The notes under the pieces are model-generated. The model searched no databases and had not been told where the DNA came from. It worked only from the letters and a program-made list of their open reading frames with translations. The position numbers were made by a program, and so were the translations under genes. DNA of 64,000 nucleotides, from assembly GCA_003955985.1 (NCBI GenBank), contig CP033784.1:1612001-1676000 (forward strand), read 5' to 3'. This document shows, one piece after another, positions 6,129 through 9,998 of this stretch (its first letter is position 1; each line of letters starts with the position of its first letter). This DNA comes from Corynebacterium jeikeium. GTDB taxonomy: Bacteria > Actinomycetota > Actinomycetes > Mycobacteriales > Mycobacteriaceae.

Positions 6129-6488
6129 CTAATCAATCGAGACGAGTCCCTGGCCGCCCTGCACTGCGTCGCCGACTTCGACATGAATAGAGCCGACGGT
6201 GCCTGCAGCCGGGGCCGTAATCTCGGTTTCCATCTTCATTGCCTCGAGAATGAGCAGCACCTCCCCAGCCTCAATCTTCTGGCCTTCCTCGACCAAAATC
6301 TTGCTGACCGAACCTGCCAGTGGCGCCACCACCGAATTGGCGGAGACACCCGAGACACTAGCGGTGGCCGGCTCAACGGAAGCGCTCGACGATCCACCCA
6401 ACACGATGGGCGAAAGACGCTTGGGCTCCTCAACTACTTCAACGTCGACATCGTAGGCAATGCCGCCGACAGTCACTTTCAATTTCAT
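6129..6488 (-). CDS. Methylmalonyl-CoA carboxyltransferase 1.3S subunit (biotin carrier)
   Basis: 119 residues, very like the 1.3S biotinyl subunit of propionibacterial transcarboxylase. N-terminus MKLKVTVGGIAYDVDVEVVE, then a Ser/Ala/Val linker (about 30-52) and a biotinyl domain with the biotinylation motif EAMKMET (Lys85). It ends QGGQGLVSID. It would carry the carboxyl group between the 12S (methylmalonyl-CoA/propionyl-CoA) and 5S (oxaloacetate/pyruvate) active sites. Last gene of the operon, 71 bases after the accessory gene. Other biotin carriers share the domain, but the N-terminal start, size and neighbours point to transcarboxylase. Confidence 0.92.
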   Translation of the reverse strand: MKLKVTVGGIAYDVDVEVVEEPKRLSPIVLGGSSSASVEPATASVSGVSANSVVAPLAGSVSKILVEEGQKIEAGEVLLILEAMKMETEITAPAAGTVGSIHVEVGDAVQGGQGLVSID

Positions 6489-6559
6489 GGCTCAACAATC
6501 CTCACGTAGCAAAAGTCAATGAGTCAGACTCAATTAAGTCGGGTATCGAAAATTTCCAA

Positions 6560-6865
6560 CTAACGCAGGTTGCGCTGCTGCTGGATCTGGCGTCCCTGCG
6601 CAGCCCACGTCTTATGGCGGTTGTATCGAATTGCCTTCACCTTGCCGCGATTGCCCAGGTACGCAGACACTGCTGCCGAAATGGCGATGACAGTATCCTC
6701 GGGGATATCTGCGTCCACGCGTTTGCGCAGTTCAGCCAACTCGCTCTCTGCCTGATTCAGTCGTGCCGTGGCCTTCTGCAAGCTTGTCGAGGTCGCATCC
6801 AACCGGTCGGTCAGTTCAGCGACGAGCGCTCGCAGCTCCTTAATCTCACCGATGCCGTCAGACAT
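6560..6865 (-). CDS. Small accessory protein of the transcarboxylase operon
   Basis: 101 residues. Residues 1-50 are a predicted coiled coil (EIKELRALVAELTDRLDATS...AELRKRV). The C-terminal half holds IPEDTVIAISAAVSAYLGNRGKVKAIRY followed by WAAQGR. The pattern 'IAAAVAAYLG...W..QGR' recurs, as I remember, in small proteins encoded inside biotin-dependent decarboxylase and carboxyltransferase operons. Its start overlaps the stop of the 12S gene (TAATG), so it is translationally coupled. A role in assembly or stability of the complex is inference. Not homologous by eye to the mycolic-acid AccE subunit. Confidence 0.78.
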   Translation of the reverse strand: MSDGIGEIKELRALVAELTDRLDATSTSLQKATARLNQAESELAELRKRVDADIPEDTVIAISAAVSAYLGNRGKVKAIRYNRHKTWAAQGRQIQQQRNLR

Positions 6866-8478: not shown

Positions 8479-8501
8479 TGCTATCTCTTCTCCCGATGTT
8501 C

Positions 8502-9998
8502 CTAGGCGGGTTCCACCTGGACGGTCTGTGAGCGACCGCCAACGGTGACCTTGTAGCGAATTGGCTCGCGAATGGCATTGGCAGCACCTGAGGCTTGCTC
8601 CGCCTCGCGCTTGAGCTGTTCGGCAGTCTTACCGACGTTCTTCGGCCCTTCGCCGCGCGTGGTGAAGAATCCCGGTGCGACGGATGGGAACAGTGCGTTG
8701 GTCAGGACGTCCTCGGCGGTGCCGTTGTAACCGTCGAGCTCCTTGGCCTGCTTGACCAGGTCGTCCCACTCTGGTTCGAGGAGATCAGCCGGGCGAACCG
8801 TGATTTCTTCCTTCTTGGTCTGTTCCGCTGCCTGCTTAATCAGCTCTGGGTTGCGCTCACCAGGACACTGCCCGTAATAGCCGAGCATGAGGTCGGCGAA
8901 CTCAGCCGTCATAACCTTGTAGCGTCCCATCAGTACGTTAAACACAGCTTGCGTGCCGACGATCTGCGAGCTCGGAGTCACCAGCGGCGGGTAACCGGCG
9001 TCCTTTCGGACAATCGGTACTTCACGCATGACCTCTTCGACGCGGTCGCCCGCGCCCTGGGCCTTGAGCTGGTTTTCCATGTTCGACAACATGCCGCCAG
9101 GAATCTGCGACATGAAAATGTCGGTATTGACCAGGGTTTTCGACTCGAACTCTGCGTACTTCGGACGCACCTTGCGGAAGTGGTCACGAATGGTGATCAG
9201 ATTATCCATGTTCAGGTCGGTGGTGTAGTCGGTTCCCTCCAACATTTCCACCAGCGACTCGGTCGGGTTGTGTCCCGGCCCCAGCGACATCGACGAAATT
9301 GCTGTGTCCACGACATCCGCACCAGCTTCGATGGCCTTCATCAAAGTCACCATGGTGACACCGGTAGTCGAGTGACAGTGGACATTAATCTGGGTGTCCT
9401 CGCCGTAAGTTTCCTTGATGCCGCGGATGATGTCGTAAGCCGGCTGGGGTTTCAGCAGCGCTGCCATGTCCTTCAACGCAATGGAGTCCGCCCCCATATC
9501 CAGTAGACGACCAGCGAGCTTAACGTACCCGTCGACGTCGTGAAGCGGAGACGTCGTGTAGCAGATCGTGCCCTGCGCGTGCTTGTCGACGTTCTTGACC
9601 GCGCGCATGGCGTGCTCGAGATTGCGTGGATCGTTGAGGGCGTCGAAAACACGGAATACGTCCATGCCGTTTTCAGCGGACTTTTCGACGAACTTGTCAA
9701 CCACCATGTCCTCGTAGTGGCGGTAGCCGAGGAGATTCTGACCGCGCAGCAGCATCTGCAGGCGGCTGTTCGGCATCAGTTTGCGGAATGTCCGCAGTCG
9801 CTCCCAGGGGTCTTCGTTGAGGAAGCGAATGCAAGCGTCGAAGGTTGCGCCACCCCAGCACTCCACACTCCAAAAACCGGCCTTGTCCATTTCTTCACAG
9901 ACATCGACCATGTCTTCCATAGCCATTCGCGTTGCCATGAGGCTCTGATGAGCGTCTCGGAACGCTACTTCCGTTACACCAATGGTTCGTGGACTCAT
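8502..9998 (-). CDS. Methylmalonyl-CoA carboxyltransferase 5S subunit
   Basis: 498 residues; the pyruvate/oxaloacetate half of transcarboxylase, a TIM barrel shared with pyruvate carboxylase and oxaloacetate decarboxylase alpha. Near the start VAFRDAHQSLMATRMAMEDM supplies the metal ligand Asp; the carboxylated Lys is in DSIALKDMAALLKP and the metal His pair in INVHCHSTTG. Long stretches (WSVECWGGATFDACIRFLNE, GGMLSNMENQL, VTPSSQIVGTQAV) agree with propionibacterial 5S. The C-terminus is short and lacks a biotin domain, so carboxyl transfer needs the separate 1.3S carrier. Start set at ATG 9998 (MSPRTIGVTEV), like the known 5S start; the open frame runs on to a TTG at 10073. First gene of the operon. 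Confidence 0.92.
   Translation of the reverse strand: MSPRTIGVTEVAFRDAHQSLMATRMAMEDMVDVCEEMDKAGFWSVECWGGATFDACIRFLNEDPWERLRTFRKLMPNSRLQMLLRGQNLLGYRHYEDMVVDKFVEKSAENGMDVFRVFDALNDPRNLEHAMRAVKNVDKHAQGTICYTTSPLHDVDGYVKLAGRLLDMGADSIALKDMAALLKPQPAYDIIRGIKETYGEDTQINVHCHSTTGVTMVTLMKAIEAGADVVDTAISSMSLGPGHNPTESLVEMLEGTDYTTDLNMDNLITIRDHFRKVRPKYAEFESKTLVNTDIFMSQIPGGMLSNMENQLKAQGAGDRVEEVMREVPIVRKDAGYPPLVTPSSQIVGTQAVFNVLMGRYKVMTAEFADLMLGYYGQCPGERNPELIKQAAEQTKKEEITVRPADLLEPEWDDLVKQAKELDGYNGTAEDVLTNALFPSVAPGFFTTRGEGPKNVGKTAEQLKREAEQASGAANAIREPIRYKVTVGGRSQTVQVEPA

Follow-up and report, generated by a model that had tools for sequence, protein, structure and literature searches.

We have analyzed a stretch of 64,000 nucleotides from Corynebacterium jeikeium (assembly GCA_003955985.1, contig CP033784.1, positions 1,612,001 to 1,676,000), called the window below. 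Between positions 6129 and 9998 its minus strand carries an operon that encodes the 5S, 12S and 1.3S subunits of methylmalonyl-CoA:pyruvate transcarboxylase (TC) together with a small fourth gene, in the 5′ to 3′ order 5S, 12S, small open reading frame (ORF), 1.3S (Table 1). The genes are closely spaced, with 23 bases between 5S and 12S, an overlap of the 12S stop codon with the ATG of the small ORF, and 71 bases between the small ORF and 1.3S. An earlier reading made from the sequence alone (the sequence-only reading) had placed all four genes correctly, noting the fourth without putting a name to it. Taking our results together, it is quite probable that the operon encodes a TC of the propionibacterial type, that this TC belongs to a cycle capable of making propionate, and that the fourth gene is most likely that of a real subunit, with a domain related to MmdD and OadG. 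The fourth gene is of greater interest than the operon as such, since TC has been described with three kinds of subunit and yet this gene recurs with it.

Table 1. Genes of the TC operon and its surroundings, in positions of the window
Feature	Position	Strand	Evidence
5S subunit of TC (pyruvate/oxaloacetate carboxyltransferase), 498 aa, ATG at 9998	8502..9998	-	NF008984, PDB 1rqb, tree
12S subunit of TC (methylmalonyl-CoA/propionyl-CoA carboxyltransferase), 537 aa	6865..8478	-	PF01039 642.8 bits, PDB 1on3, tree
Fourth gene, product of 101 aa with a long helix (coiled coil) at the N-terminus and an MmdD/OadG-like domain at the C-terminus	6560..6865	-	
1.3S biotin carboxyl carrier, 119 aa, AMKM motif (Lys85)	6129..6488	-	PF00364, PDB 1o78/1dcz
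Membrane protein of the Na+/H+ antiporter family, 454 aa, first gene downstream of the operon	4675..6039	-	PF03553 and PF13726
TetR regulator gene, between the antiporter gene and bioB	3936..4634	+	
bioB, biotin synthase, near the operon	2767..3774	-	TIGR00433 354 bits (cut-off 225)

The catalytic subunits

The highest-scoring NCBIfam model for 5S is NF008984, 'methylmalonyl-CoA carboxytransferase subunit 5S', with 980 bits against a cut-off of 827. The same sequence falls under the cut-off of oadA (TIGR01108; 676.6 against 756.5) and of both full pyruvate carboxylase models (344 against 1114 and 387 against 965). It does exceed the cut-off of one broad domain model, NF006761, 'pyruvate carboxylase subunit B' (674 against 402). 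For 12S there is no specific match in NCBIfam, the best model being mmdA, under its cut-off (753 against 999). The closest solved structures are TC chains for all three subunits, which bears out the resemblance to the Propionibacterium enzyme seen in the sequence-only reading. They are 1rqb for 5S (E = 4.1e-248), 1on3 for 12S (791.7 bits, E = 2.5e-237, compared with 661.2 for the best propionyl-CoA carboxylase chain), and 1o78 and 1dcz for 1.3S (E = 4.2e-20 and 8.8e-20 respectively).

Trees were made for both large subunits. In the 5S tree of 88 rows the 21 Corynebacterium rows, that of the window included, form a single clade with a support of 98 by a quick method. This lies inside the propionibacterial TC rows and apart from seven OadA-type or pyruvate carboxylase rows. 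The clade groups with 52 other TC rows (support 97), to the exclusion of eight that include Cutibacterium, Acidipropionibacterium and P. acidifaciens. Such branching would be expected for transfer from a propionibacterial relative, but it is a hint only because the rows were chosen by their likeness to the query. For comparison across genomes we used named loci, for which 177 stretches were matched, 127 encode a relative, and the best 80 of the 127 were kept by likeness to the 5S of the window. Eighteen of these 80, picked by hand, entered a 12S tree of 30 rows, where the TC rows lie on one side of a branch with modest support (90/74), separate from the AccD chains of the genome, two PccB rows and three MmdA rows. 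A very long row (L166) joins at the base of the TC set, and the tool flags long branches as a concern. Both placements had been proposed as checks in the sequence-only reading, and both fall with TC: 5S away from pyruvate carboxylase and OadA, and 12S, at the support given, away from AccD, PccB and MmdA. A third 5S/OadA-type protein was also observed in some Corynebacterium genomes (G069, G007 and G049; loci L173, L174 and L175) as open frames of ~520–550 aa that are ~33% identical to 5S; in the tree it is distant from both 5S and pyruvate carboxylase.

A different enzyme might be suspected, given that PF01039 is common to 12S and PccB/AccD, that PF02436 is common to 5S, pyruvate carboxylase and OadA, that 5S passes NF006761, and that mmdA, although under its cut-off, is the best NCBIfam model for 12S. 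The operon would then encode a propionyl-CoA carboxylase, a fragment of pyruvate carboxylase, or an oxaloacetate or methylmalonyl-CoA decarboxylase. Against this, the top score of 5S is that of the TC equivalog, above its cut-off, while OadA and full pyruvate carboxylase stay under theirs, and the best PDB relatives and both trees point to TC. There is moreover no biotin carboxylase nearby, the two of the genome both lying outside the window, and a tblastn check that covered the window and the fetched loci gave no match to an MmdB-type membrane β subunit in the window; the sequence-only reading was right on both absences. We consider a non-TC enzyme very improbable, and the identities of propionyl-CoA carboxylase, pyruvate carboxylase and oxaloacetate decarboxylase were rejected on the NCBIfam scores, the PDB relatives and the trees. 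With a TC-type 5S, a 12S nearest to that of TC, a separate carrier with the AMKM motif, and neither biotin carboxylase nor β subunit in the operon, this is, as judged by sequence, a complete TC gene set of the propionibacterial kind.

A conserved fourth gene in the operon

The small ORF lies between 12S and 1.3S in all 72 named loci that have both 12S and 1.3S matches, and in each the order is 5S-12S-small-1.3S. In seven of the 80 loci the contig stops within 12S; of the 73 in which it extends further, 72 have the fourth gene. We also surveyed 201 Corynebacterium genomes, our own included, calling TC-positive those with a 5S above the NF008984 cut-off. There are 47 of these, so that TC is not general in corynebacteria, in agreement with the sequence-only reading, yet neither is it rare in the genus. 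A profile of the fourth gene (A1) was built from 45 sequences, that of the window plus 44 from the 72 loci, for all of which a match is by construction. It finds the gene in all 47 TC-positive genomes and in none of the 154 TC-negative ones. The match is on the same contig and strand as 5S every time, 1569–1778 bases downstream of the 5S match, which leaves room for 12S. The gene has dN/dS ~0.05–0.09 in three within-group pairs, the most distant of which has dS = 1.1. The record of one fourth-gene protein, P0062, names Staphylococcus chromogenes as its source, possibly through contamination.

The protein resembles a subunit of the sodium-pumping methylmalonyl-CoA decarboxylase, whose subunits we take to be MmdA, MmdB, MmdC, MmdD and sometimes MmdE. 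The conserved half of the fourth protein has the rough consensus IPED..VAISAAVAAYLG..AKVRA.RF.....WA...R, and the C-terminal end of MmdD-type proteins ELVAVISAAVA..MG.S.S.I.V..I.R.....P.WA..GRLEQM..RL. A hidden Markov model (HMM) made from the C-terminal ends of 83 of 86 MmdD-type proteins was searched against 15,189 ORF segments from the 80 loci. The top 35 segments are all fourth-gene ORFs, with a best E of 8e-5; 14 fourth-gene ORFs have E ≤ 0.01 and 42 have E ≤ 1, compared with three other ORFs at E ≤ 1. These 35 matches are not independent, given the relatedness of the loci and the closeness of most of the 83 proteins to one another. When the MmdD model was column-shuffled (ten times) or reversed (once), no fourth-gene ORF with E < 1 was found among the best three matches listed for each shuffle and the best five for the reversed model. 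The nearest approaches were one shuffle with a fourth-gene ORF in first place at E = 1.4, and the reversed model with two, third and fourth, at E = 1.6.

Comparison of alignments gave a similar result. With hhalign the fourth-gene alignment matches the MmdD C-terminal domain at 95.0% for the whole protein and 95.4% for its C-terminal half, and 26 full-length MmdD-type proteins at 92.2%. Thirty shuffles reached at most 4.9%. AccE-type epsilon chains, for which 19 of 30 loci (L125–L154) gave a usable segment, reached 4.2%, and an identity as an AccE-type epsilon subunit was rejected on this value. Of the curated models, MmdE (NF047904) matches six of the 45 fourth-gene members (best E = 2.3e-4, 21.0 bits against a cut-off of 65), and OAD_gamma (PF04277) matches the C-terminal part of eight (best E = 0.02). 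Given that the MmdE scores and the OAD_gamma score of the window's own protein are under the curated cut-offs, we regard the fourth protein as a relative of the OAD_gamma/OadG-MmdD family rather than a member of it. The predicted models of the fourth protein and of an MmdD-type protein share one layout: a long helix at the N-terminus, then a shorter one, and a helix at the C-terminus. The N-terminus of the fourth protein is predicted to be a charged coiled-coil helix (residues 3–51) instead of a membrane helix.

Several observations weigh against a fourth subunit of this kind. The available text of PMC2909200 describes the P. freudenreichii TC as four coding sequences for an enzyme of three subunits. 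One of the 73 testable loci, L075, continues without the fourth gene, and the figures for co-occurrence of the gene with TC take no account of phylogeny. Most of the 83 MmdD-type proteins closely resemble a single Acetoanaerobium protein. The fourth protein of the window itself scores 14.1 bits on OAD_gamma, where the gathering cut-off is 27, and is not matched by the MmdE model. A search of 296 Actinomycetota genomes with that model misses the fourth gene in our own genome and gives one weak hit there, away from the operon (E = 0.005). Of the 45 members, 20 match DUF7310, a coiled-coil family that is unrelated (best E = 0.002). A profile search of solved structures is headed by coiled coils, with no OadG or MmdD chain among the best 60 of 145, and a fold search with the fourth protein gave two matches, both with E above 7 and not significant. 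The C-terminal parts of both predicted models are of low to middling confidence. As to L075, a contig of a propionibacterial metagenome-assembled genome, it leaves the TC-type 12S sequence at base 3615 for a tail, after which, by eye, come frames resembling a short membrane protein of the OadG type and the start of a β subunit (3615–4145). It is probably a chimeric assembly, and possibly a natural hybrid.

The published account suggests another explanation, that the gene is a detached C-terminal part of 12S and not a subunit of its own. As far as its text is available, PMC2909200 (2010) takes PFREUD_18850 for the C-terminal part of 12S, matching Swiss-Prot Q8GBW6, and the public names of P0043, P0048 and P0097 call the small protein 12S, partial or large subunit. 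However, in 72 of 72 loci 12S has its own stop codon and the small ORF its own start nearby, and the small ORF is in another frame than 12S in 49 and in the same frame in 23, unlike the remains of one broken fusion. Relatives of MmdA that are of a length like that of 12S (513–517 aa) have no such tail and are followed by a separate OadG gene, and the profile match of the small protein is to MmdD. A 12S tail is thus an unlikely identity. The three public names were perhaps copied from the longer 12S entry that the available text of PMC2909200 cites. Alternatively, the likeness to MmdD might be due to convergence on an alanine-rich helix and a Trp/Arg tail, and the protein might have another role, such as binding of biotin ligase or regulation. 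Single-sequence scores do lie under the curated cut-offs, and the aligned part is just 42 columns at 31% identity. Yet the shuffled and reversed controls keep the composition and fail to match, the two curated models (MmdE and OAD_gamma) weakly agree in pointing to MmdD, and the position in the operon agrees with it too. To convergence we also give little probability.

We regard the fourth gene, for which conservation and likeness to MmdD are both observed, as a good candidate for a subunit that has escaped notice. On balance we lean towards the view that TC has a fourth conserved subunit, which was overlooked through being read as part of 12S. We found neither a fourth TC subunit nor a link between TC and OadG in the part of the open-licence literature looked at. 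In the accessible part of PMC7650540 the likeness of the decarboxylase α subunit to 12S is noted and the pump pathway is suggested to have come first; that part makes no mention of the small TC gene.

MmdD and MmdE function in the assembly of the sodium-pumping decarboxylase, and by analogy the fourth protein may have a role in docking and assembly. Its C-terminal domain would dock on the 12S-type core and so help to seat 1.3S and, through 1.3S, 5S. The N-terminal coiled coil would stand in for the membrane helix by which MmdD is anchored in the decarboxylase. According to the reading frames, OadG genes beside a 5S-type gene alone lack a Trp-containing tail (six of six), and those beside a 12S-type gene have one (three of three; Monoglobus has a 5S-type gene too). 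This association of the tail with 12S-type genes, seen in nine loci, would place the docking site of the fourth protein on 12S.

The gene, which accompanies TC in all 47 TC-positive genomes of Corynebacterium and, among testable loci of this genus and of propionibacterial relatives, in 72 of 73, offers a direct test of how TC is assembled. A fourth subunit would correct the published assignment to the 12S tail and the names in the databases, and if MmdD-like would offer a concrete path by which a soluble transferase could have evolved from an ion pump of the membrane.

Distribution and a proposed propionate cycle

The genome encodes MutAB, located together with MeaB. The large mutase chain passes its model, and the best model for the small chain is TIGR00642, under its cut-off (560 against 617). 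It also encodes an epimerase, two YgfH-type CoA-transferases and a phosphoenolpyruvate (PEP) carboxylase. The search for mutase and epimerase that the sequence-only reading had called for thus found both, with MeaB in addition. The two CoA-transferase genes are adjacent on opposite strands (G000:C1:1048469-1052979; L170 and L171). There are five PF01039 places in the genome, 12S among them, and the 5S-type model matches no pyruvate carboxylase in it.

Across the genus, the mutase is above its cut-off in 55 of the 201 genomes and the epimerase in the identical 55, with 42 more having weaker epimerase matches only. All 47 TC-positive genomes have both, compared with eight of the 154 TC-negative ones. 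For 5S and mutase the co-occurrence has a Fisher p of 6e-38 over the 201 genomes, uncorrected for relatedness. Such co-occurrence of TC, mutase and epimerase is the trace that a working Wood-Werkman cycle would be expected to leave.

The gene set of that cycle (mutase, epimerase and CoA-transferase) is present in the genome, the specificity of the CoA-transferases for propionate and succinate being putative. In the proposed mechanism 12S would shift a carboxyl group between methylmalonyl-CoA and the biotin of 1.3S, and 5S would shift it between that biotin and pyruvate or oxaloacetate, with no need of ATP. Together with MutAB, MeaB, the epimerase and a CoA-transferase, TC would complete a Wood-Werkman cycle able to make propionate. 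By its gene content the organism can have such a propionate-forming cycle, whose activity and direction we infer. The operon provides a way in which a Corynebacterium of the skin could form propionate, although operons of this kind are already listed for the genus.

TC might instead serve mainly in the use of propionate or propionyl-CoA, or in supplying oxaloacetate where pyruvate carboxylase is missing. The reactions are reversible, as stated in the available text of PMC2909200, and the direction cannot be deduced from sequence, a point on which the sequence-only reading is upheld. The two YgfH-type CoA-transferases, whose substrates are putative, fit the release of propionate. Given the absence of a pyruvate carboxylase match from the genome, TC could feed oxaloacetate, but a PEP carboxylase is present. 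Nor is the lack of a second match of the 5S/pyruvate carboxylase type tied to TC across the genus: nine of the 47 TC-positive genomes have the 5S match only, and 25 of the 154 TC-negative genomes have none. TC as a genus-wide stand-in for pyruvate carboxylase is thus unsupported. We regard either of these as the main role as possible but distinctly the less likely, and prefer a cycle that can form propionate.

Propionate is an end product of C. amycolatum in the taxonomic literature; in the open-licence literature looked at, as far as its text is available, we did not find the statement. Methylmalonyl-CoA carboxyltransferase is reported in Propionibacterium and Corynebacterium (PMC9403272), the 12S name is used in work on C. 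pseudotuberculosis (PMC8710256 and PMC7397307), and C. amycolatum makes cobamides and the mutase is encoded by corynebacteria (PMC9600381), each according to the accessible part of the source. Because TC in Corynebacterium is already in print, the operon itself is ordinary.

The surrounding genes and related systems

The DNA of the window is 95.6% identical to C. amycolatum SK46 across 17.5 kb. With bioB beside the TC operon, its product could possibly supply the biotin cofactor of 1.3S. The arrangement of antiporter, TetR and bioB after the operon was seen in only L033, L034, L035 and L037 of 20 named Corynebacterium loci, which are of the C. amycolatum/C. lactis type; L043 stops too early to judge. 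The antiporter gene occupies the same place in these loci, and is a candidate member of the operon at most. L033 is labeled C. vitaeruminis, yet its TC locus shares 91–92% identity with the window and falls with C. amycolatum, so it is possibly mislabeled. A promoter and terminator scan gave no signals above those of shuffled sequence, and no near match suggesting a plasmid origin was present among 72,556 plasmid records.

The closest known system is the TC of P. freudenreichii (EC 2.1.3.1; structures 1rqb, 1on3 and 1o78/1dcz), which shares all three catalytic subunits with the window. In the available text of PMC2909200 its four coding sequences form one transcription unit, in which the locus numbers put the small one between 1.3S and 12S. 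It is from another genus, and was published with three subunits and the small sequence assigned to 12S.

The sodium-pumping decarboxylase has counterparts in MmdA for 12S, MmdC for 1.3S and the C-terminal domain of MmdD for the fourth protein, and the three genes are in the same order. TC differs from it in having 5S, in having no membrane β subunit, and in the coiled coil where MmdD has a membrane helix. On the Ilyobacter plasmid pILYOP01 the genes run mutase-meaB-mce-mmdA-OadG-mmdC-mmdB-bioB, where a B12-binding gene also follows the mutase, and mmdA-OadG-mmdC parallels 12S-small-1.3S of TC. Like the operon of the window, that of Ilyobacter has bioB after it. The order carboxyltransferase-OadG-carrier-β is also found in Monoglobus and, by reading frames, in Acetoanaerobium; a Parabacteroides plasmid has carboxyltransferase and carrier genes with no annotated OadG gene between them.

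Two further families are small like the fourth protein or match it weakly. AccE (PF13822) is likewise small and encoded beside a carboxyltransferase gene, but has no profile similarity (4.2% in hhalign). OadG (PF04277) has the weak C-terminal model match in eight of 45 members. The six OadG proteins of Actinomycetota that are above the cut-off are all encoded beside a 5S-type (OadA-like) gene, and stop before the Trp-containing tail.

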